A stretch of DNA of 64,000 bases from Methanolobus sp. (GTDB lineage: Archaea; Halobacteriota; Methanosarcinia; Methanosarcinales; Methanosarcinaceae), in assembly GCA_030154025.1 (NCBI GenBank), contig JASKKT010000004.1, positions 1 through 64,000 of the forward strand, written 5' to 3'. The notes beneath the pieces are model-generated. The model did no database searches. It saw nothing but the letters and a program-made list of their open reading frames with translations, and was not told the origin of the DNA. Position numbers and translations under genes: made by a program. Positions 17,910 to 30,953 of this stretch are shown piece after piece (position 1 is the first letter of the stretch; every line of letters begins with the position of its first letter).

Positions 17910-19706
17910 ATGGAAAACAGGTTCATAGTCATAGCAGGTGAGGAAGCAGGACCAAGATCTAACAAGATGGGAGGAATCTGGAATGTCATTGATGCTGAGG
18001 CCAGGAACCTTGCACAGATGATAAGTGATGGTGTCATAGGGGATGAAAGGAAAACGCAGATAATAGTTGCAGGGCCTTATTACGGACACTCGGGAGCTGA
18101 CTGGAACAAGGGACTGAACAGAATAACTGACATGAGCGGGTTCGGTGAGTACGAGCCGGAAGGGGAACTGCTCTTTGCCCTTGAGCAGCTTGGCTCAAGA
18201 GGTATAGAAGCACATACCGGATCCGTCAAAGTAGATGATGTGGACATCATTTACATCATGTTCAAAACCAACGACTTCAATATGATCAGTTCTGAATACA
18301 AAGGTCAGAAAATGTGCCTTTCCGGCAAAGTGAAAACTGAGGCATACGAACTCACAGGACTGGACTCGCTCCACTACGAAACCATGAATAACGGCATGGA
18401 ATACACTCACTACCTCAACCTGTCCTACGCCATATCCGAACTTGCCCGGCTGCTTGTGGATGCCGGCAGGTCGGCCTCGCCTGTATATAGTGACAGGGCG
18501 ATATCTGATTTTGCGGCTTCCCTGATGCCCTCCGTGGAGGTCTCCCTTCACTGCCACGAGTTCGGGGTATTCTATGCGGCTGCACGGCTTGAGAGACTTG
18601 GTGTGAGCGTGCACACGGTTGCAACTTACCATGCGACAATCCCAGGAAGGGTGGCAGGCCATCGATCCATCCGGAAAATAAGGGACAAGGACAGTTCCTG
18701 GGACAGCGGGGTACCTGTCAATTTCGCAAAGCTGGAGTCACTTTCATCATATACCGATGTAGTGACTGCCGTGGGTGATTCCACGCGCAAGGAAGTGAAG
18801 CTGTTCTATGGCATCGATGCCATGGTAGTGCGCAATGGCATAGACCTGGAAAGCAGCGACGTTGACTGGCCCAAGAAGGCCAGGAACCGGAAAAGGATAC
18901 AGGAATTCCTGTCAGAGAAGATATATAATGTATTCAACAGCAGGGTGATCCCCCCGGACAGGATCGTGCCTATCTTTTCCATATCCCGTATAGAGATCGA
19001 GAACAAAGGATATCCTGACCTGCTTGATGCCCTTGTGGTACTGGACAGGATGGTCAGGAACGAGATAGATGCAGGTCATCTTGATGAGAACTTCAGGGTC
19101 ATATGTTTCATTGTTGCAGCCCACGGGCCAAAGACAAACACACCGGAGAACTTCCCCATCTACCTGCCCGAAGAGATACTGATAGGCGAGGAGATGAGGC
19201 TTCAGCAGATGATAAACTCCAGGGGACTTGAGTGCTCCAGGATCCCGGACGGCAGCCGGCATGTGGCGGCCGTGCTATACCCACAGTGGCTGTCGGACCA
19301 TGACGGCGGCCTGAACATGACCACGGATGAGTTCATGTCCGGATGTATCGCCGGGGTCTTCCCCTCCAGGTACGAGCCGTTCCTGCTCACCGGGCTGGAG
19401 GCCGGGAAAGAGGCGACCCCCAGTATAGTCAGCAAGGTGTGTGGCTTCAGCGATGCCCTCAGCACCCTCAAAAGGCTTGTGATGGGCATGGGAGGCGTGA
19501 TCGTGGTAGACAACATCAACCTCTCCTATATCGAGTCAATAGCGGATTATGCTCTTGCAATGGACTATTTCATCGATACCTATACGGATGATAAGGTCAA
19601 GTACAACCTCCTCTGCCAGGAAGCGAGCCTGCTTGCAAAGGACATGAACTGGAAAGCACCGGCCAGGGAATATTTTGAGCTCCTCACAGGTACACGCATG
19701 GAGTGA
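17910..19706 (+). CDS. Glycogen synthase-like glycosyltransferase (GT3 type)
   Basis: This protein probably elongates alpha-1,4-glucan from a nucleotide sugar. It has 598 residues, with two Rossmann-like halves. SLHCHEFGVFYAAARLERLG and VATYHATIPGRVAGH resemble the eukaryote-type glycogen synthase (GT3) N-domain. PSRYEPFLLTGLEAGKEATP in the C-domain carries the E-x7-E retaining-enzyme motif. The N-terminal EEAGPRSNKMGGIWNVID replaces the KxGGL loop of GT5 enzymes. GGGAG before the ATG is the ribosome site. It opens the operon; its stop overlaps the following gene. GT3 versus a related family could be decided only by alignment. Confidence 0.8.
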   Translation: MENRFIVIAGEEAGPRSNKMGGIWNVIDAEARNLAQMISDGVIGDERKTQIIVAGPYYGHSGADWNKGLNRITDMSGFGEYEPEGELLFALEQLGSRGIEAHTGSVKVDDVDIIYIMFKTNDFNMISSEYKGQKMCLSGKVKTEAYELTGLDSLHYETMNNGMEYTHYLNLSYAISELARLLVDAGRSASPVYSDRAISDFAASLMPSVEVSLHCHEFGVFYAAARLERLGVSVHTVATYHATIPGRVAGHRSIRKIRDKDSSWDSGVPVNFAKLESLSSYTDVVTAVGDSTRKEVKLFYGIDAMVVRNGIDLESSDVDWPKKARNRKRIQEFLSEKIYNVFNSRVIPPDRIVPIFSISRIEIENKGYPDLLDALVVLDRMVRNEIDAGHLDENFRVICFIVAAHGPKTNTPENFPIYLPEEILIGEEMRLQQMINSRGLECSRIPDGSRHVAAVLYPQWLSDHDGGLNMTTDEFMSGCIAGVFPSRYEPFLLTGLEAGKEATPSIVSKVCGFSDALSTLKRLVMGMGGVIVVDNINLSYIESIADYALAMDYFIDTYTDDKVKYNLLCQEASLLAKDMNWKAPAREYFELLTGTRME

Positions 19707-20711: not shown

Positions 20712-21875
20712 ATGAAAACCTTAAGAATTGCCATGTTCTCATGGGAAAGCCTGTATTCAGTCAATGTTGGAGGGCTTGCGCCTCATGTCTCGGAACTTGC
20801 GGAGGCCCTTGCACAACATGGCCATGAAGTGCATATATTCACCCGTAACCAGGACATGATCCCCTACGAGATAGTTAACGGAGTCCATTATCACAGGGTC
20901 AGCCATTCGCTCTCCGGTGGTATAGTCCAGCAGATGGACAGCATGTGCGATGCCATGCATTCAGCGTTCTGGGAAAGCGTGCAGAAGTTCGGGGATTTTA
21001 ACGTAATGCATGTCCATGACTGGCACCCTGTGAACGTTGTCAGCAGGCTCAAAGCCGATGTGGGTCTGCCCTTTGTTACAACATACCACAGCACGGAGTG
21101 GGGCAGGAACGGGAACGTCCACGGCAGCTGGTGGGAAGCAATTGAGATAAGCCACCGGGAGTGGAGAGAGGGATATGAGTCATCCCAGGTGATATCCACC
21201 TCCCGTGCACTGAAAGCTGAGATCCAGCACCTGTACCAGATACCTGACTACAAGATATCTATAATACCCAATGGGCTCAATGAGAACAAGATGAGGATGA
21301 ATGTGGACCCTGGCAAGGTAAAGTCTGCCTATGGTATCCACCCCTGCGCCCCTGTGGTCCTGTTCGTCGGCCGCATGAACTACCAGAAAGGCCCCGACCT
21401 CCTTGTGAGGGCCATACCGGCGGTTCTCAGTAACAGGTGGGACGTGAGATTTGTCCTGATAGGAGAGGGTGAAATGCGCCCTGTCTGTGAGGATCTTGCC
21501 CGTAAGCTCGGAGTCTATAATAGCTGCCATTTCCTCGGTTACGCTAAAGAGAGCGTAAAGAAGGAATGGGTGAACGCATGTAACCTTATGTGCGTACCAA
21601 GCCGTAACGAGCCCTTCGGGATAGTGCTTCTGGAAGCCTGGGATGCCGGCAAGAACATTGTAGCCACTAATGCAGTGGAGCTCATTGACAACTTCCATAA
21701 CGGCATTACCGTCTACCAGACCCCTGAATCCATTGCATGGGGAATCAACCATGTGCTGGATAACTATGCTGACGGCCAGCTTGGCAGGGAAGGGAGGAAA
21801 CTCCTGAGGGACAGGTACAACTGGGAAAAGATAGCTGAAAAAACCATCGAGGTCTACCTGAAGGCAATAGAATGA
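20712..21875 (+). CDS. GT4 family glycosyltransferase, probable glycogen/alpha-glucan synthase
   Basis: This is a 387-residue GT-B fold enzyme of family GT4. The N-domain starts with FSWESLYSVNVGGLAPHVSELAEAL, the donor-loop glycine pair, and contains VMHVHDWHPVNV. The C-domain has VLFVGRMNYQKGPDLLV and the retaining motif PSRNEPFGIVLLEAWDAGK (E-x7-E). The GlgA-like VHDWH string and operon position suggest glucan elongation or glucosyl-1-phosphate transfer, a second synthase beside the GT3-type one. Its stop overlaps the corA start (ATGA). Confidence 0.87.
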   Translation: MKTLRIAMFSWESLYSVNVGGLAPHVSELAEALAQHGHEVHIFTRNQDMIPYEIVNGVHYHRVSHSLSGGIVQQMDSMCDAMHSAFWESVQKFGDFNVMHVHDWHPVNVVSRLKADVGLPFVTTYHSTEWGRNGNVHGSWWEAIEISHREWREGYESSQVISTSRALKAEIQHLYQIPDYKISIIPNGLNENKMRMNVDPGKVKSAYGIHPCAPVVLFVGRMNYQKGPDLLVRAIPAVLSNRWDVRFVLIGEGEMRPVCEDLARKLGVYNSCHFLGYAKESVKKEWVNACNLMCVPSRNEPFGIVLLEAWDAGKNIVATNAVELIDNFHNGITVYQTPESIAWGINHVLDNYADGQLGREGRKLLRDRYNWEKIAEKTIEVYLKAIE

Positions 21876-22927
21876 AAAAACATTACTCAAGAAAGGCCGG
21901 CCTTGCCCCCGGCACCATTGTCCACGTAGGCGAGGCAAGAGCAGAAAAACCGAAGATAACCCTGATAAATTACGACAAGAACAACTATGAGGAGCGTGTA
22001 GTTGAGGATATCGAGGCATGTTTCCTCTGCAGGGATTCCAGCTCAGTTACATGGATAAATGTCGATGGTGTCCACCAGGTAGACATTGTTGAGAAGATAG
22101 GAACGCATTGCGGGCTTCATCCGCTTGTAATGGAGGATATAGTCCACACAGACCAGCGCCCAAAGATGGAGGAGTTCGAATCCTACATATATCTGGTATT
22201 GAAGATGCTGCAGTTTGATGATGAAAAACTGGCAGTTACCGCGGAGCAGGTAAGCATCATCCTTGGGCCCAGCTTTATCCTGTCGTTCCAGGAAGCCGAA
22301 GGAGATACCTTTGAACCTGTGAGAGAGAGGCTCAGGAACTCAAAAGGACGTATCCGATCCGTTGGGCCCAGCTACCTTGCCTATGCGCTGATGGACTCGG
22401 TCGTGGACAACTACTTCATTGTGCTTGAGAAGATCGGCGAGTTCCTTGAGCTGCTCGAGGAGGACATGATCGAGAACCCGACCCCGGAGATCCTTGAGGA
22501 TATCCACGGGATCAAAAAGGAGATAATATACCTCCGCAGGTCTGTCTGGCCTCTCCGGGAAGTCATAAGCAGGCTGGAGCGCTCTGAGTCACCACTTATA
22601 GAAAAGGTTACACTGGAATTCCTCAAGGACCTGTATGACCACACCATCAGGATAATCGAGACTGCGGAAACCTATCGTGATATAACCTCAGGTATAATGG
22701 ATGTTTACCTGTCAAGCGTCAGTAATAAGATGAACGAGGTCATGAAGACCCTGACAATAATAGCAACCATCTTCATCCCGCTCACTTTTATAGCCGGAGT
22801 GTATGGTATGAACTTCGAGCACATGCCTGAGCTGGGCTGGGAATGGGGATATCCTGCAGCCTGGATGGCAATGCTACTCGTATCCGTTTCCATGATGATG
22901 TATTTCCGCAGGAAGAAATGGCTGTAA
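21872..22927 (+). CDS. corA: CorA-type magnesium/cobalt channel
   Basis: CorA forms a homopentameric Mg channel. The protein has 351 residues: a soluble alpha/beta N-domain, a long helical stalk (KIGEFLELLEEDMIENP) and two C-terminal membrane helices. The signature GMN is in GVYGMNFEHMPELGW at the end of helix 1, and the basic tail RRKKWL follows helix 2. It overlaps the upstream GT4 gene by four bases and is followed by DUF432 and MscS genes. This places ion transport inside a glucan operon, an uncommon arrangement. Confidence 0.95.
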   Translation: MKKHYSRKAGLAPGTIVHVGEARAEKPKITLINYDKNNYEERVVEDIEACFLCRDSSSVTWINVDGVHQVDIVEKIGTHCGLHPLVMEDIVHTDQRPKMEEFESYIYLVLKMLQFDDEKLAVTAEQVSIILGPSFILSFQEAEGDTFEPVRERLRNSKGRIRSVGPSYLAYALMDSVVDNYFIVLEKIGEFLELLEEDMIENPTPEILEDIHGIKKEIIYLRRSVWPLREVISRLERSESPLIEKVTLEFLKDLYDHTIRIIETAETYRDITSGIMDVYLSSVSNKMNEVMKTLTIIATIFIPLTFIAGVYGMNFEHMPELGWEWGYPAAWMAMLLVSVSMMMYFRRKKWL

Positions 22928-22943
22928 TAAATGAATGATATAA

Positions 22944-23654
22944 ATGTATGACAAATATACGCCCCCTTTCACCCTGAACTTTGAAGGGCATGAGATATCG
23001 GTAGAGAAGGACAGAGAAAACCTCATATACAGAAGGACCTGCAATTACCAGACAGTCGAGAAGACACTCCTTAACACCCACGGCGAGTTCCTTATCAATC
23101 CCATTGAACCTGTGAACCTGCCAAAACCCATAACTTCTTCCCTGCTTATCGATTTTGAACATCCGGTAGTGATAGGGCCGGGAACAAAGCAGAAGATATA
23201 CCTGACATTCCCTGTGGAGACCGGGATATTCATTGTCGGCAGGAACGGGGACCATGAGCTTGTTGACATGCTTACCCTCAGCAATATAAAATACACTCTG
23301 TACGGGACACCTAACAACGGGGTTGTATGCAGATACTGGAAGAGTAAGGCCTTCACATCCTACCCCCATCCGGATACACGATACGAGGGAGATATAGAAC
23401 TTGATATCATCAATGACACAACCCATTGGATGGAAGTAACAAAAGCGGTGTTCAATGCATACGGCATGAAGATATATTACGGGAAAGAACAGCTATCAAT
23501 GAGGGCTTTCATGAGGATCATCAACAGGAATCTCGCTGAGACCGGGTTTATGACTTATACTACTACAGCGGAGTTCAAAAGGTCTATCGAGCTCTACACA
23601 TCCCGTAAGGTAATATTGAGCGGGAACAGGGGAATAATGGAGCATGGCCTATGA
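22944..23654 (+). CDS. DUF432 family protein
   Basis: This is a 236-residue protein of archaeal family DUF432. It has no membrane segment or signal peptide. Visible features are a beta-rich core with KQKIYLTFPVETGIFIV and NIKYTLYGTPNNGVVCRYW. Proteins of this family are often encoded next to MscS channels, and here it overlaps the mscS start (ATGA) and follows corA. A soluble partner or regulator of the channel is a reasonable inference, but no function is established. Confidence 0.8.
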   Translation: MYDKYTPPFTLNFEGHEISVEKDRENLIYRRTCNYQTVEKTLLNTHGEFLINPIEPVNLPKPITSSLLIDFEHPVVIGPGTKQKIYLTFPVETGIFIVGRNGDHELVDMLTLSNIKYTLYGTPNNGVVCRYWKSKAFTSYPHPDTRYEGDIELDIINDTTHWMEVTKAVFNAYGMKIYYGKEQLSMRAFMRIINRNLAETGFMTYTTTAEFKRSIELYTSRKVILSGNRGIMEHGL

Positions 23655-24598
23655 ATGTTACTGAAACCATCAGTTTCCTCCCGGAGACCCCTGAAACCGT
23701 GCTCAAGATAATAGGTGCCATACTGGTGCTTATTATCGCCATTGGAATGGGAAAAGCACTTACCATTTACCTGCAGAGGTCCCTCAAGGATAAGGTTGAC
23801 AAGGGGCATCTCGATATAATACTCAAGGTTGGTTATTACGGCCTCATTACACTGGTTATTGTGGTGTTCATTTTACCGCTGACAGGAATTGAAAGCTCCG
23901 GCCTTCTGGTTACAGGAGGTGTCTTCGGTATAGTCATTGGTTTTGCCAGCCAGAGTATCGTAGGTAATCTCATATCGGGTTTCTTCATCATAGTGGAGAG
24001 GCCTATCAAGATAGGCGACCAGATCAATATTGCCAATAACATCGGGTTTGTGGAAGACATCAATATATTCTCTACTATCATAAGGACATACGACGGCCTC
24101 TACATGAGGATACCGAACCAGACCGTATTTACGGCTAACATTACCAACTATGTCGCGAACGTTACAAGGAGATTCGAGTATGTTGTAGGCATTCGTTATA
24201 GCGACGACGCTGAGGAGGCCATCAGGATCATACGCGAGATCATTGACAACGAGCCCTTTGCCCTGAAGGACCCCTCCCCAGGCTTGTTTGTGGATACCCT
24301 CGGGGATAATGCGGTTAACATAATTGTCAGGATATGGGCGCCAATCACAGAATGGTTCGAGATGAAGACCAGACTCCTGTGGGTCATCAAAAAGACATTG
24401 GAAGAGAACGGGATAGAGATAGCCTTCCCGCAGAGGACCGTATGGTTTGCAGGCGAACTCCAGACAAGGAAAGTCACCGATACACAAACCGAACTTCTGC
24501 CTGAAGCCCCAAGCAGGTATCCTCCGGCGGAAAGGACAGATCTTACGGAGGAAATACACGGCCTTCCGGAAATGCAGGAAGGAACAAAGGAAGGTTGA
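23651..24598 (+). CDS. mscS: MscS-family mechanosensitive channel
   Basis: This is a small-conductance mechanosensitive channel of 315 residues with about three membrane helices and a cytoplasmic vestibule. GVFGIVIGFASQSIVGNLISGFFI is the pore-lining helix with the Gly/Ala packing pattern. ERPIKIGDQI begins the beta domain and the C-terminal alpha/beta domain follows. The last 45 residues are a polar tail (LPEAPSRYPPAERTD) not common in MscS. The channel releases solutes upon hypo-osmotic stress. It overlaps the DUF432 gene and precedes the GH57 genes. Confidence 0.93.
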   Translation: MNVTETISFLPETPETVLKIIGAILVLIIAIGMGKALTIYLQRSLKDKVDKGHLDIILKVGYYGLITLVIVVFILPLTGIESSGLLVTGGVFGIVIGFASQSIVGNLISGFFIIVERPIKIGDQINIANNIGFVEDINIFSTIIRTYDGLYMRIPNQTVFTANITNYVANVTRRFEYVVGIRYSDDAEEAIRIIREIIDNEPFALKDPSPGLFVDTLGDNAVNIIVRIWAPITEWFEMKTRLLWVIKKTLEENGIEIAFPQRTVWFAGELQTRKVTDTQTELLPEAPSRYPPAERTDLTEEIHGLPEMQEGTKEG

Positions 24599-24602
24599 AC
24601 CA

Positions 24603-25733
24603 GTGAAAGCTGTCTGCGTGTGCTTTGAAGTCCATCTTCCCTTACCTCTCAAATGGTACTGGCCGCGGGAGGGATACGGCGCCCCGGCGCTTGAAAAATA
24701 TTTTGAGATGGAAAGGAGCTATAACAGTTTCCTGAGACTCGAAAAGGATATCCGGGTACTTAACAGTGCCCTGATGGCATCCATGGAGGTGGGGGGTAGG
24801 TACACATTTGATATCTCCGGGATCTTCCTGGAACAATGCAAATGGGAACCGGCCATACTTGACAGTTTCAGGCAGCTTGCAGATAAGGGGGCAGGGCTTG
24901 TGGCATCGCCCTATTATCACTCCATCTGCCCTATGTTCCCGGACCTTCAGGAGTTCAGGGAGCAGGTCAGCATGCACATGGACTCCCTGAAGGACATATT
25001 TGGAGTAACGCCTGTAAGTTTCGCCAATCCGGAGCTGCTTCTTGACCAGAGGACGAACGATAGCTGCAGGGATCTTGGCTTTAAGTGCTTCATCTCGGAG
25101 GGATCCCATAATATCGTGAACGGATGCGATCCTGTGCACGTTTACAGGAACGAGGTTCCCACTCTGCTGCGCCATATAAACCTCAGCGAGGACGTGGAAA
25201 AAAGGTTATCCGACAGGAAATGGCCTGGCTATCCCCTGATAGCAGAAAAGTTCGCGTCATGGGTAGCCGGAATGGAGGGAGATGTTCTGACACTATACAT
25301 CAAGTACGATTCACTTCAGGTGCATCTCCAGAGGAATGCCGAGATCGTACAGTTCCTGATAGAGCTGCCTCTGTCACTGGCACGGCATGGCATTAAGATG
25401 CTTCTTCCGGAAGAGGCTGCCGGCAGGTTCAGGCAGGAGGAGCTGCCTTCCCTTTACTCAAAGAAGACAGCACGCTACGGCATGCACAATCTCATGGGGA
25501 ACCACGCCCAGCACCTCTACATGCATGAACTGCAGAGCATAGGAAATGAGCTTGGGAAACTTACGTCACATGAGGAACACGAAAAGCTGCAGTCCATTTA
25601 CCGCTACCTGCAGCAGAGCGACATATTCCTGGAAATGAACGCTGAGGGCAGGCGTCTTGGATACGAGAAGGCGGTAAACAATTTCTCCATTCTTTCCGAT
25701 ATGAAACGTGCATTGACAGAGGCGGGTACATGA
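24603..25733 (+). CDS. Degenerate GH57 family protein (probably catalytically dead paralogue)
   Basis: This 376-residue protein aligns along its length with the next gene, a GH57 amylase. The family N-terminal block VHQP is VHLP here. The nucleophile Glu is retained in ANPELLLDQ. At the acid/base position the intact paralogue has FMDYETFGEHQW, while this one has YIKYDSLQVHLQ, so Asp is replaced by Lys and the following Glu-x-x-Gly pattern is lost. Hydrolysis is unlikely. It may bind glucan or form a complex with the active paralogue. The ORF-track start (24447) overlaps mscS; GTG 24603 after AAGGAAGGTTGA was chosen. The stop overlaps the next start (ATGA). Confidence 0.8.
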   Translation: MKAVCVCFEVHLPLPLKWYWPREGYGAPALEKYFEMERSYNSFLRLEKDIRVLNSALMASMEVGGRYTFDISGIFLEQCKWEPAILDSFRQLADKGAGLVASPYYHSICPMFPDLQEFREQVSMHMDSLKDIFGVTPVSFANPELLLDQRTNDSCRDLGFKCFISEGSHNIVNGCDPVHVYRNEVPTLLRHINLSEDVEKRLSDRKWPGYPLIAEKFASWVAGMEGDVLTLYIKYDSLQVHLQRNAEIVQFLIELPLSLARHGIKMLLPEEAAGRFRQEELPSLYSKKTARYGMHNLMGNHAQHLYMHELQSIGNELGKLTSHEEHEKLQSIYRYLQQSDIFLEMNAEGRRLGYEKAVNNFSILSDMKRALTEAGT

Positions 25734-26932
25734 GATCGGTCTGTTTCTATTTTGAAGTTCATCAGCCCTACAGGCTCAAGTGGTTCTGGCCTGGCAGCAG
25801 ATCCGAGGGATTCGGCAGATACTTCGATGACGAGGTCAACAGGGAGATATTCAGGAGGGTGTCCGAGAAGTGTTACCTTCCCGCAAACCGAACCATCCTG
25901 GAACTGATGGACGAGAGTGAAGGAAAACTAAAGCTCAGCATGTCCGTCACCGGCACTCTCCTGAACCAGTGCGAGAGATGGGGCGAGGACGTGCTGGAAA
26001 GCTTCCGGGACCTTGCAGATACCGGATGCATGGAGTTCATAGACGAGACCTATTACCACTCCCTTGCGTCACTCTTTGAGTCAGGGGATGATTTCACAGA
26101 CCAGGTGATGGAACACCGGAAGGCCATGTCAGACCTCCTTGGAGTGAGACCACAGGTGTTCAGGAACACCGAACTGCTGTACAATAATACCATAGCCACC
26201 CTTGCCGCGAAGATGGGGTACAAGGCCATACTGATGGAGGGCATCGAAAGAGTGCTTGAAGGCCGCTCTCCCAATCATGTCTACAGGGCAAAGGACAGCG
26301 ATATCGCAGTGCTCCTGAGGAACTATAAATTGAGTGATGACATTGGATATCGCTTCTCATCACGCTGGTGGGAGGAGTACCCGCTCACTGCCAACAAATG
26401 GGCCGGGTGGTTATCCCGCAGTGCAGGGGAGACTGCGAACATATTCATGGACTATGAGACCTTCGGGGAACACCAGTGGACAGATACTGGCATATTCGAT
26501 TTCCTCAGGGCTCTCCCGGGAGAGGTCACAGACAGGGGAGTGGAGTTTCTAACTCCCTCGGAAACCGTCAGCAGGTACGCTTCTGCAGGCGATATCGATG
26601 TGGGAGATTTCTCCACGGTCTCATGGGCAGATATCGAAAGAGACACCAGCGCATGGCTTGGTAACGATATGCAGAGACGCTGCTTCGAAGAAGCTAAGCT
26701 GCTGGGACCTTACGTGAAGGCGACAGGGGACCAGGAGCTCATAAGTATATGGAAATACCTGCTCACCTCGGACCATTACTACTACATGAGCACAAAATGG
26801 CTCGGCGACGGGGATGTGCACTCTTATTTCAGCATCCACTCCTCACCTTACGATGCTGGGGTCAATTTCATGGCAGTCATGATGGACTTCAAGGAAAGAG
26901 TGTTCAGTAAACTGAAGAGAACAGGCCGCTAA
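25730..26932 (+). CDS. GH57 family alpha-amylase / glucanotransferase-like hydrolase
   Basis: GH57 enzymes cleave alpha-glucans with retention. The 400-residue protein shows VHQPYRLKWFWPG (motif 1), the nucleophile Glu in FRNTELLYNN (motif 3) and the acid/base Asp in FMDYETFGEHQW (motif 4). The short length, without C-terminal extensions, resembles archaeal cytosolic alpha-amylases. No signal peptide is present, so it acts on internal glycogen. It overlaps the degenerate GH57 gene by four bases, which suggests a coupled pair from a tandem duplication. Confidence 0.92.
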   Translation: MRSVCFYFEVHQPYRLKWFWPGSRSEGFGRYFDDEVNREIFRRVSEKCYLPANRTILELMDESEGKLKLSMSVTGTLLNQCERWGEDVLESFRDLADTGCMEFIDETYYHSLASLFESGDDFTDQVMEHRKAMSDLLGVRPQVFRNTELLYNNTIATLAAKMGYKAILMEGIERVLEGRSPNHVYRAKDSDIAVLLRNYKLSDDIGYRFSSRWWEEYPLTANKWAGWLSRSAGETANIFMDYETFGEHQWTDTGIFDFLRALPGEVTDRGVEFLTPSETVSRYASAGDIDVGDFSTVSWADIERDTSAWLGNDMQRRCFEEAKLLGPYVKATGDQELISIWKYLLTSDHYYYMSTKWLGDGDVHSYFSIHSSPYDAGVNFMAVMMDFKERVFSKLKRTGR

Positions 26933-26978: not shown

Positions 26979-28943
26979 ATAAGGCAACCCAATTCTATAC
27001 TCGGGAACCGGGAACTGCTCGTTACCATGGGGAAGAGAGCAGAGATCTTCGGTTTCTTCTATCCCGGCAGGGACTTTGCCCAGCATGTGGAGGAATCGCA
27101 GGCATGCCTGCACGACGGGAAGAGGCTTATCTGGTCCAATGATCATGAATGGCAGGCGACCCAGAATTACATCGAAGATACAGATGTGGTGGTCACTCAC
27201 CTCCGCCGGCAGGGAGGACTGAGCATGGATATCCTGGACCTCGCCCATCCTAATCATCCTGTACTGGTACGTAATTACAGGATCAGCGCTTCTGAAGGAT
27301 TCCATGGCAAATTCTATTACTACTCGAAGTTCCAGGCAGGAGAGACCTTGAAAAAGAACTCCGCCTTCTGTGACACCGAATCGGGGATACTTGTACATTA
27401 CTGGAGGAACTATCACCTGGGGCTTAGCTCAAGGCCCGCATTCGAAGAATGGCAGGTGGGCAGAGCGCTTGAGTCGGATATCTGGACCAACGCCCTCTAC
27501 GATATGCAGGATGGGGGACTGCAGAACAAGCGAGAGGAAATAGGCAGGCTCAACAGTGCCATGGCATGGAAGCTGGACATCGAGCCTGGTTCAAGCAGGA
27601 AGATAACGGTTTTCATTGGTGCGGCACCCACAAGGGAGATGCTCTACAATAAGATGAGGACAGCAGGCACCGAAAATGTGGAAAGGATGATGAAGAAGGT
27701 TTACGACGAGCAGACCGGCTGGCTGGCTGGGAGCAGAAGGATCACGCTGCCACAGACTGAGGATAACAGCCGTGAGGAACTTACCAGCGCTTTCAAACGT
27801 TCCTTACTGACACTGTCCCTTCTGAGCGACCCGGAGGAAGGATCTTTCGTCGCGGCTCCCGAGTTCGACCATGATTTTGAGCGGAGCGGAGGCTATGGCT
27901 ACTGCTGGAACAGGGATGCTGCCGAGACAGTGCTCGCACTCCTCAGTGCAGGCTATCCGGACTTCTGCATGCGTTTCTTCAGATGGTGCAGGAAGACGCA
28001 GATGTCCGATGGCTCCTGGTTCCAGCGCTACTGGCTGGACGGGAGCCTTGGCTCTTCCTGGGGAAATTTCAGTTTCTCCACCCAGATGGACGAGACAGGA
28101 GCAACGCTCTTTGCCATGGACAGATACTTCCGGAGCCAGCAGCCAGTAGCCAGAACCGCCTTTCTCAGCGAGATCTGGCCAAGTGTGTTGCCTGCCACCG
28201 AATATCTCATGAGGAGGACTGCCGGGGGCCTTCACGATCCCTGCACCTGCCTCTGGGAATCTTACAAGGGCACATTCACCTACACAAACGCCGCCATATA
28301 TGGGGGACTGACAGGAGCTGCAGACATAGCTGCAGCACACGGAGAGCACGAGCTTGCAAACAGGTGGCTTACGAGAGCGAAGCTCATCAAGGAGGCCACT
28401 GTACGTGAGTTCTGGCTGCCTGAAGGATACTTTGCAAGGGGCAGGGTGGATGACAGGCTGGACACTGAGGCAGATGCCAGCATGCTGGGAGCCGTCGTCC
28501 CATTCGGCATGCTTGACGCGGATGACGAAAAGGAGAGAGAGATGATCCTCTCGATGATCCGCACGATCGAGAAGAGGCTAGGAGTGCAGGTGAACAGCCA
28601 TATCGGGATAAAGCGCTACGAGACCGATGATTACATTGAAGGCAATCCCTGGGTTGTGATAACGCTCTGGCTCTCGAAGGCGCTACTGACCCTGGCCGGT
28701 TCAGCTCAAAGGAAAGGGGACGAGGAGGAATGCAGGAGCATGAGAGCGGAGGCTCTGGAGTATATTAACTGGGCCCTCAGAGGCACGACCAGTACAGGTT
28801 TGTTACCGGAGCAGGTAAACAAGCACACCGGCAGGCCTGCCTGGGCAATACCCTTAAGCTGGAGCTGCGCCCTTATGATCGAGAACCTGATAATGCTGGA
28901 TGAGCTGGACAATGCACTGTTAATGGATCCTGGGCCAATATAA
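26979..28943 (+). CDS. GH15 family glucoamylase-like hydrolase
   Basis: GH15 enzymes release glucose from alpha-glucan ends with inversion. The (alpha/alpha)6 domain carries YCWNRDAAETVLALL and MDETGATLFAMDRYF with a likely catalytic Glu near CLWESYKGTFTYTNA. The ORF track starts at ATG 27027, but the frame upstream reads RQPNSILGNRELLVT, matching the usual archaeal GH15 N-terminus (NSILGN-type beta-sandwich start). Between the in-frame TAA at 26955 and 27027 no ATG, GTG or TTG exists. GGGGAG at 26964-26969 precedes CTG 26976 and ATA 26979; ATA would give MRQPNSILGN. If 27027 were used, the first strand would be missing. Confidence 0.85.
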   Translation: MRQPNSILGNRELLVTMGKRAEIFGFFYPGRDFAQHVEESQACLHDGKRLIWSNDHEWQATQNYIEDTDVVVTHLRRQGGLSMDILDLAHPNHPVLVRNYRISASEGFHGKFYYYSKFQAGETLKKNSAFCDTESGILVHYWRNYHLGLSSRPAFEEWQVGRALESDIWTNALYDMQDGGLQNKREEIGRLNSAMAWKLDIEPGSSRKITVFIGAAPTREMLYNKMRTAGTENVERMMKKVYDEQTGWLAGSRRITLPQTEDNSREELTSAFKRSLLTLSLLSDPEEGSFVAAPEFDHDFERSGGYGYCWNRDAAETVLALLSAGYPDFCMRFFRWCRKTQMSDGSWFQRYWLDGSLGSSWGNFSFSTQMDETGATLFAMDRYFRSQQPVARTAFLSEIWPSVLPATEYLMRRTAGGLHDPCTCLWESYKGTFTYTNAAIYGGLTGAADIAAAHGEHELANRWLTRAKLIKEATVREFWLPEGYFARGRVDDRLDTEADASMLGAVVPFGMLDADDEKEREMILSMIRTIEKRLGVQVNSHIGIKRYETDDYIEGNPWVVITLWLSKALLTLAGSAQRKGDEEECRSMRAEALEYINWALRGTTSTGLLPEQVNKHTGRPAWAIPLSWSCALMIENLIMLDELDNALLMDPGPI

Positions 28944-28967: not shown

Positions 28968-30953
28968 ATGGATAATAGGGATAGTGAAACCCTGCTTGCA
29001 AAAGGCACAGGCAGGGAATGGATAATAACCAACGGCCTTGGCGGATACGCTTCATCCACAGCCATAGGGATGAATACAAGAAAATACCATGGCCTGCTTG
29101 TGGCGGCCATTAACCCCCCGGTACACAGGAGAGTGATGCTCTCATCCCTTGACGAGGAGATACAGGTCGGCAGCCGGGCATACCAGTTTGCAGCACACCA
29201 GTACCCGGGTACCTTGCACCCGCAGGGCGATCGCCATCTTGAGGACTTTTCCACAGAACCTTTTCCGGAATTCCGGTATTTTGCGGAGGATGTCTCTGTC
29301 AGAAAGAAGATAACCATGGTTCACGGGGAGAACACCGTAGTTGTCCGCTATGATATCTCAAACCCTGTGCACGACAGTATTATTTTCAGGGTGCTTCCGC
29401 TTGTGAATAACAGGGACATACATAAACTGACCAGATCGGTAGAGCTGCAGTTCAAGCAGCATCCACACGGAACCGGCACCGTTCTTGACAGTAAAGAAGG
29501 AAAGCTTTACATTGGTTCGGACATCCCCTTCACGCCTAAGGCCTACTGGTATTACAATATGGAATACATGACAGAGCTTTCAAGGGGATATCCATACAGG
29601 GAGGATAACTTCAATCCGGGTTACTTTGAGACTGAGGTCGGCAGGGGCGAGTCGTCTTTCTTCATTGCAGCATCCACTTCGGGGATATCACTTGATATGG
29701 ATGATATTGACAGGATATTTTCCCATGAAATGCAGCGCAGGAACCAGCTCACTGAAAAGCAGGCCCATAAAGATGATTTTATCAACAGGCTGACCAGAGC
29801 CGCAGACTCATTCATAGTACGCCGGCAATCGACCGGTTCAAGATCGATCATAGCAGGCTATCACTGGTATTCGGACTGGGGAAGGGATTCCATGATCTCA
29901 CTGCCTGGCCTCACCCTGGTTACCGGAAGATTTGGCGATGCCAGGAACATACTCGCAACATTTGCAGCCAGCTGCAGCGAGGGACTTATCCCCAACTTTT
30001 TCCCGGAGAGCCCTTCCGGTGAGATAGCATATAATACAGTGGATGCCTCCCTGTGGTTTGTTCAGTCCCTCAGAAAATACCTGGACTATACAGGCGACCT
30101 GGAGTTTATATCAGGAATCTGGGATACTGTCGAGAACATAATAGACTATTATTGCAGGGGAACAAAACATGATATAAGAATGGAAGCAGACGGCCTGATA
30201 TCACAGGGCGGGCAGCTTACCTGGATGGATGTAAAGGTAAGAGGCAGGGAACTGACATCACGCCGGGGAAAGACATGCGAGATCAATGCTCTGTGGTACA
30301 ACGCCCTGCTGCAGGCATCGGCAATGGGAGAGCAACTTGGCAAGGATACCTCCGCGTTCTATGAGATTGCGGAACTTACGAAAGAGAACTTCGAAGGCGC
30401 GTTCTGGAATGGGGACAAGGGCTGCCTCTATGACTGCATTCCCTGCCCCGAAAATCCCGATGACACTGAACCTGCATGTCCGAAAGATGCCTCTGTGAGG
30501 CCAAACCAGGTACTTGCCGTATCACTGCCTTTCACAATGCTTCCTTCTGCCAGTGAAAAAAGTATAATGCAGGTTGTGAAGGATGAATTGCTGACCCCGT
30601 ATGGCCTCAGGACACTTTCCCCGTCAGACCCGTTCTACATGGGTGTCTACCGGGGTGATGCGGAAGGCAGGGACACAGCCTATCATAACGGCACTGTCTG
30701 GCCCTGGCTGCTCGGCCCCTATATAACGGCATACATTAAGGTCAACGGGCATTCAAACAAAAGCAGGGATGAAATGAGAAGCCTGCTCAAGGGAATGGAA
30801 GTGCATCTGGAAGAAGCAGGCATCGGCACCATCTCCGAAGTATTCGACGGGGACACCCCCCACAGGCCCGGCGGTACTATTTCCCAGGCTTGGAGCGTGG
30901 CTGAAGTACTGCGTGCCTATGTGGAAGACATCGGCGCTGGTGACCTGACATGA
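28968..30953 (+). CDS. Glycogen debranching enzyme (amylo-alpha-1,6-glucosidase type)
   Basis: This 661-residue protein belongs to the archaeal/bacterial glycogen debranching enzyme family related to the C-terminal glucosidase half of eukaryotic AGL (GH133). The N-terminal domain has WIITNGLGGYASSTAIGMNTRKYHGLLVA. The catalytic barrel has WYSDWGRDSMISLPGLTLVTGR, TVDASLWFV and the C-terminal YHNGTVWPWLLGP. It removes alpha-1,6 branches, completing the degradation set with GH57 and GH15. It closes the glycogen operon. AGAGGAGTGGGATAAAAGT precedes the ATG. Confidence 0.93.
   Translation: MDNRDSETLLAKGTGREWIITNGLGGYASSTAIGMNTRKYHGLLVAAINPPVHRRVMLSSLDEEIQVGSRAYQFAAHQYPGTLHPQGDRHLEDFSTEPFPEFRYFAEDVSVRKKITMVHGENTVVVRYDISNPVHDSIIFRVLPLVNNRDIHKLTRSVELQFKQHPHGTGTVLDSKEGKLYIGSDIPFTPKAYWYYNMEYMTELSRGYPYREDNFNPGYFETEVGRGESSFFIAASTSGISLDMDDIDRIFSHEMQRRNQLTEKQAHKDDFINRLTRAADSFIVRRQSTGSRSIIAGYHWYSDWGRDSMISLPGLTLVTGRFGDARNILATFAASCSEGLIPNFFPESPSGEIAYNTVDASLWFVQSLRKYLDYTGDLEFISGIWDTVENIIDYYCRGTKHDIRMEADGLISQGGQLTWMDVKVRGRELTSRRGKTCEINALWYNALLQASAMGEQLGKDTSAFYEIAELTKENFEGAFWNGDKGCLYDCIPCPENPDDTEPACPKDASVRPNQVLAVSLPFTMLPSASEKSIMQVVKDELLTPYGLRTLSPSDPFYMGVYRGDAEGRDTAYHNGTVWPWLLGPYITAYIKVNGHSNKSRDEMRSLLKGMEVHLEEAGIGTISEVFDGDTPHRPGGTISQAWSVAEVLRAYVEDIGAGDLT

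Follow-up and report, generated by a model that had tools for sequence, protein, structure and literature searches.

Why would an archaeon keep, directly upstream of a glycoside hydrolase gene, a second gene of the same family whose product lacks a catalytic residue? The question is raised by positions 24603-26932 of a 64,000 nucleotide (nt) stretch of DNA from Methanolobus sp. (Methanosarcinaceae; contig JASKKT010000004.1, hereafter the window), where two genes of glycoside hydrolase family 57 (GH57), here called A and B, lie head to tail with a 4-nt ATGA overlap. A preliminary description of the window, made from its letters alone, had read them as a tandem of one enzyme and one pseudoenzyme, and had proposed that conservation of the fold with loss of catalysis points to a regulatory or glucan-binding partner. 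Our analysis leads us, with moderate confidence, to a related reading, in which A is probably a non-catalytic, glucan-binding partner subunit of the catalytic B, the two being an ancient GH57 paralogue pair within a glycogen cluster.

Catalytic residues of the two GH57 proteins

Both proteins match the GH57 domain PF03065 far above the Pfam cut-off of 21.2 bits (Table 1), which together with the coordinates confirms the tandem pair, and a PF03065 search of the whole genome recovered A and B as its only GH57 genes. Neither A nor B matched any NCBIfam model. In GH57 the nucleophile is found at strand β4 and the proton donor at β7 (PMC6037648); B has both the Glu on β4 and the Asp on β7 that mark an active member of the family, and A does not. 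The residues of A agree with what had been described earlier, as the nucleophile Glu is kept (E144), K234 takes the acid/base position occupied by D241 in B, and the VHQP motif is changed, with HLP where B has HQP. B also displays the GH57 α-amylase fingerprint in the family-conserved segments SDHYYYM, FMDYETFGEH and FEVHQP, including the E/Q before HQP (position 1), Thr at logo position 23 and the closing Tyr-Tyr (compared with PMC6037648), and may be a retaining α-glucan-active enzyme with amylase, glucanotransferase or branching activity. A falls within the AAMY-like definition of the same study, that is, resemblance to GH57 α-amylases with at least one catalytic residue lost.

Conservation of the pair in the family

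A PF03065 search of 112 genomes of the family gave a GH57 match in 94, and 80 loci with A and/or B from those genomes, together with the window, formed the alignment set (A, n=79; B, n=81). Wherever both genes were recovered, A immediately precedes B in the same orientation, and A and B are absent together from the 18 genomes lacking a GH57 match. The E/D dyad of B is present in 81/81 proteins. In A the nucleophile column holds Glu in 75 and Gln in 4, and the acid/base column Asn in 35, Lys in 33, Asp in 6, Arg in 4 and Ser in 1 (joint states EK 33, EN 32, ED 5, ER 4, QN 3, ES 1 and QD 1), with at least one catalytic residue missing from 74/79 proteins. At the acid/base position the A proteins of Methanolobus, the genus of the window, have Lys (21) or Arg (4), and those of Methanococcoides (g7) have Lys in 11/11; Asn is found in genus g13, which we take to be Methanosarcina, and Asp in genus g11. 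Gln at the nucleophile position occurs in all three A copies of genus g12 and in one Methanosarcina A. It had been proposed to check whether the substitution is conserved in orthologues: this largely holds for the loss of acid or nucleophile as such, and not for the Lys itself. Lys as a conserved functional residue of A was accordingly rejected, with Asn equally common and the replacement tracking the genus. In the g11 A proteins (loci L105-L109), in which Glu and Asp are kept, the near-universal His that follows the acid/base motif is replaced by Asn, and these proteins are possibly still-active forms.

The preliminary description had named one result that would speak against a pseudoenzyme, namely a different alignment in which some other Asp of A takes the catalytic position, and D236 was evaluated in this respect. 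A joint profile of A and B matched the Aquifex GH57 chain with an E-value of about 1.6e-6, with E144/E148 falling on E256 and K234/D241 on D352. A profile of A only matched the Aquifex GH57 protein weakly (E-value 0.025) and with a two-residue slip, which put the D236 column on D352. As that column holds Asp in 33/79 A proteins only, D236 is no general replacement acid, and it was rejected as the catalytic Asp of A on the joint profile and the variability of the column, so that the alternative alignment did not hold. Searches of the PDB with phmmer gave no matches for A or B, and a profile of B only had no match there at an E-value of 0.01. Structure prediction, another check proposed earlier, returned GH57 folds for both copies, with Foldseek matches to GH57 structures in the PDB (1k1x, 3p0b, 2b5d and 9jlq); the models were built on 8 and 7 sequences, are of low confidence (predicted template modelling score 0.65) and served to assess the fold and the order of the strands, but not the geometry of the pocket. 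In the predicted fold of A, E144 stands just after β4 and K234 at the end of β7.

The cluster runs in the order GT3-type glycogen synthase, GalT-like protein, GT4/5-type glycosyltransferase, CorA, DUF432, MscS, A, B, GH15 and GH133. The A/B overlap is exactly 4 nt in 78/81 genomes, the other three having a gap of 2 or 5 nt, while the spacings B-GH15, GH15-GH133, GT3-GalT, GT4-CorA and GT4-A drift; the only similarly fixed spacing is DUF432-MscS, in far fewer genomes (4-nt overlap in 22/24). A fixed A/B overlap among drifting spacings suggests selection on the translational coupling of A and B itself, as would be anticipated for subunits required in a fixed ratio, which does not amount to proof of a complex.

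Duplication history and selection on A

A maximum-likelihood tree of 72 proteins, obtained by a quick type of search without bootstrap, placed A in one clade (Shimodaira-Hasegawa-like approximate likelihood ratio test support 100, stem 1.22) and B in another (support 97). The pair also occurs in two genomes that lie farther away within the order, with a full E/D dyad in the A protein of G407 and Asp at both positions in that of G270, and both genomes branch first in the A clade as well as in the B clade. Given the separate clades and the matching order of early branches, the simplest reading of the tree is a single old duplication before the order radiated, followed by joint descent. The presence of E and D in the A proteins of g11 and G407 indicates that the acid was lost stepwise and later than the duplication, and parsimony on the A clade counts three changes between Asp and not-Asp and three between Glu and not-Glu.

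A has diverged approximately 1.5 times as much as B. Pairwise ratios of non-synonymous to synonymous substitution (dN/dS) are mostly 0.05-0.14 for A (about 0.1, with one pair at 0.29) and 0.03-0.16 for B, and A is under purifying selection. Of 153 near-invariant B columns, 45 are unchanged in A, 22 hold another residue that is conserved among the A proteins, 74 vary and 12 are gaps, and A has its own conserved set, which includes R291, Y292, G293, H301, Q337 and Q338 among others. The pocket of A thus appears remodelled rather than simply decayed, and A fits neither a relic evolving freely nor an active site kept intact. The old paired clades and the dN/dS mostly near 0.1 led us to reject a recent duplication as well as a pseudogene.

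Very divergent GH57 proteins of about 500 amino acids with an altered dyad were also seen in other families of the phylum (loci L152, L153, L154 and L155 of genomes G113, G356, G419 and G131), each encoded some 4-5 kb from a second GH57 protein of 800-900 amino acids. In the tree they group separately from A on long branches, which make their placement unsure, and they may have degenerated independently.

A proposed partner function for A and its alternatives

In our proposal A is a pseudoenzyme that has lost the general acid, while its fold, its nucleophile position and particular pocket residues have been retained. The sequence state, the joint inheritance of A and B and the conserved overlap are observed directly; that A forms a complex with B, binds glucan and has an effect on B is what we infer. 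Translation of the tandem would terminate at the end of A and restart on B at the ATGA, and the two proteins would then assemble into a hetero-oligomer in which A binds a glucan chain but leaves it uncut; this would stabilise, position or regulate B, and perhaps also the neighbouring GH15 enzyme, on glycogen. Support comes from the natural changes in A, as D-to-N and E-to-Q (the latter in the four proteins with Gln) are the same as the D352N and E256Q mutations of the Aquifex GH57 protein, which according to the PDB titles are oligosaccharide-bound mutants, and thus match substitutions used to hold substrate in the crystal. An A protein that mostly lacks the dyad, yet is constrained and always found beside B, likewise fits a retained non-catalytic partner, and to this extent the earlier proposal of a kept fold with lost catalysis stands; it does not stand as a general rule for the A clade, with the dyad retained in g11 and G407.

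Several observations weigh against a partner subunit. Both E and D are present in all five g11 A proteins and in the earliest-branching A (G407), so the loss of catalysis does not appear to be universal, and the retention of Glu at the nucleophile position of 75/79 A proteins goes beyond what a mere scaffold would require. Overlaps of the ATGA type occur widely in archaeal operons, and the A/B overlap is a mark of co-expression rather than a sign of complex formation. The distances of A and B correlate strongly (r 0.96), which is largely shared species history, and the structure models of A and B are both of the low confidence given above.

The same retained Glu might indicate that A is catalytically active by a changed mechanism, in which it uses an activated donor (glucosyl phosphate or a nucleotide sugar) or a substitute acid such as His241, and this would be in line with the conservation of H241, H106, E166 and D197 in A and with conserved pocket residues of its own (R291, Y292, G293 and H301). 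Myrosinases are comparable in keeping the nucleophile and missing the acid. However, the nucleophile is itself replaced, by Gln in the three g12 copies and one Methanosarcina A and by Asp in G270, the acid/base column is occupied variously by N, K, R, S or D, and His241, E166 and D197 show the same conservation in B and are thus no specific substitutes in A; we consider an active A unlikely. At the other extreme, A could be a weakly constrained relic, retained only because its frame drives translation of B, as the nearly invariant overlap and the faster divergence of A would allow. This is very improbable, since dN/dS is mostly about 0.1 and the 45 B-invariant residues left unchanged and 22 swapped for another conserved residue represent family-wide retention that is unlike a relic leader.

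As a third possibility, A might act unattached to B as a glucan-binding or sensing protein that serves GH15 or the whole cluster, with the overlap merely setting expression ratios relative to B. Nearly all loci have A, B and GH15 in this order, and in a set of 40 genomes an orthologue of this GH15 (≥538 bits) was found in the genomes with A, plus G002, a 75%-complete relative in which the GH15 match begins at a contig end, whereas B-type genomes without A either have only GH15 paralogues, scoring no more than about 160 bits, or have no match. A and GH15 nevertheless appear together at one point of the tree, and as their co-occurrence may go back to a single acquisition instead of recurrent co-selection, the link between them is only suggestive. 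The tight spacing of A is moreover to B and not to GH15, and we regard a free A as doubtful. A more specific version of the partner subunit is that A and B jointly constitute a two-subunit glycogen branching enzyme of the Methanosarcinales, in which B would cleave and transfer and A would hold the acceptor or donor glucan; for the present this is distinctly unlikely.

The surrounding glycogen cluster

The features of the locus are collected in Table 1. The GT3-type glycogen synthase is adjoined by a GalT-like protein (PF01087, PF16268; 19703-20686), which could be a source of nucleotide sugars via an unusual uridylyl- or adenylyltransferase route. The CorA-DUF432-MscS block (21872-24598) lies within the cluster in Methanolobus and g12, and is missing in Methanococcoides, where GT4 is followed by A. 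A search of the genome for GH13 (PF00128) gave no match, and with no GH57 beyond A and B the genome lacks a classical branching enzyme (GH13 GlgB or GH57 glycogen branching enzyme); a phosphorylase is present.

Table 1. Positions of the GH57 pair, its key codons and associated glycogen genes in the window
Feature	Position	Strand	Basis
GT3-type glycogen synthase-like, cluster head	17910..19706	+	PF05693 52.5 bits; gene order
GT4/GT5-type glycosyltransferase, glycogen synthase-like	20712..21875	+	PF00534, PF13439, PF08323
A: GH57 α-amylase-like protein, predicted pseudoenzyme	24603..25733	+	GTG start, 376 amino acids; PF03065 167.8 bits
A Glu144 codon, retained nucleophile position, just past predicted β4	25032..25034	+	
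A Lys234 codon, acid/base position, end of predicted β7	25302..25304	+	
ATGA overlap: A stop TGA and B start ATG	25730..25733	+	
B: GH57 α-amylase-type enzyme, complete E/D dyad	25730..26932	+	400 amino acids; PF03065 293.1 bits; Foldseek GH57 matches
B Glu148 codon, nucleophile	26171..26173	+	
B Asp241 codon, acid/base	26450..26452	+	
GH15 glucoamylase-type oligosaccharide amylase, next after B	27027..28943	+	PF00723; TIGR01577 688 bits, under the cut-off of that model
GH133 amylo-α-1,6-glucosidase, archaeal glycogen debranching enzyme	28968..30953	+	PF06202 434 bits, PF12439; TIGR01561 615 bits, above cut-off

Relation to known systems

The AAMY-like group of GH57, in which one or both catalytic residues are missing, was described in 2018 from 126 sequences, 60 of them archaeal, with exceptions noted that have the full dyad (PMC6037648). 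A shares with this group the resemblance to GH57 α-amylases combined with the loss of a catalytic residue, and A and its orthologues may already be among those sequences; the text of that study makes no mention of a tandem active paralogue, an overlap, a lineage history or Methanosarcina, all of which belong to the present pair. B has the α-amylase fingerprint and E/D dyad in common with GH57 α-amylases such as the Methanocaldococcus jannaschii enzyme (PMC11046441), and differs from them in being encoded beside an inactive twin. The nearest solved relative by sequence is the Aquifex aeolicus GH57 amylopullulanase (PDB 9jlq, 8zyi and 9jlr), which has the same fold and dyad (E256, D352) as B; it is a single active enzyme in which D352N and E256Q were engineered, whereas the substitutions in A are natural. 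In plants, the non-catalytic GH13 paralogue ISA2 forms an obligate complex with ISA1 and is needed for the stability and activity of ISA1 (PMC3787081). ISA1/ISA2 and A/B would both combine a catalytic and a non-catalytic paralogue acting on a branched α-glucan, for which the indications in A/B are indirect, namely the obligate adjacency and the 4-nt overlap, but the plant proteins belong to GH13, are eukaryotic and are encoded by unlinked genes, and the comparison is an analogy of mechanism without homology. Our literature search, of incomplete coverage, found no paper on an obligate overlapping A/B pair, on its joint inheritance or on a link to GH15. GH57 α-amylase-like proteins without catalytic residues are thus already known, and it is the obligate, translationally coupled pair of enzyme and pseudoenzyme that appears to be new.

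Methanosarcina is known to make glycogen (PMC6355812). A 2024 review asks whether an archaeal GH57 amylase or amylase-like protein may be the missing branching enzyme where the classical one is lacking, and cites a strong drop in glycogen in a Sulfolobus mutant null for GH57 (PMC11046441). Its table of archaeal enzymes also carries the mark 'one inactive isoform'. With no GH13 and only this GH57 pair in the genome, the question becomes directly testable at the A/B locus, by asking whether B branches, with or without A. The pair would also provide a well-sampled natural case of the path from enzyme to partner subunit, with forms that keep the dyad, substitutions like those of the engineered mutants and a fixed overlap.
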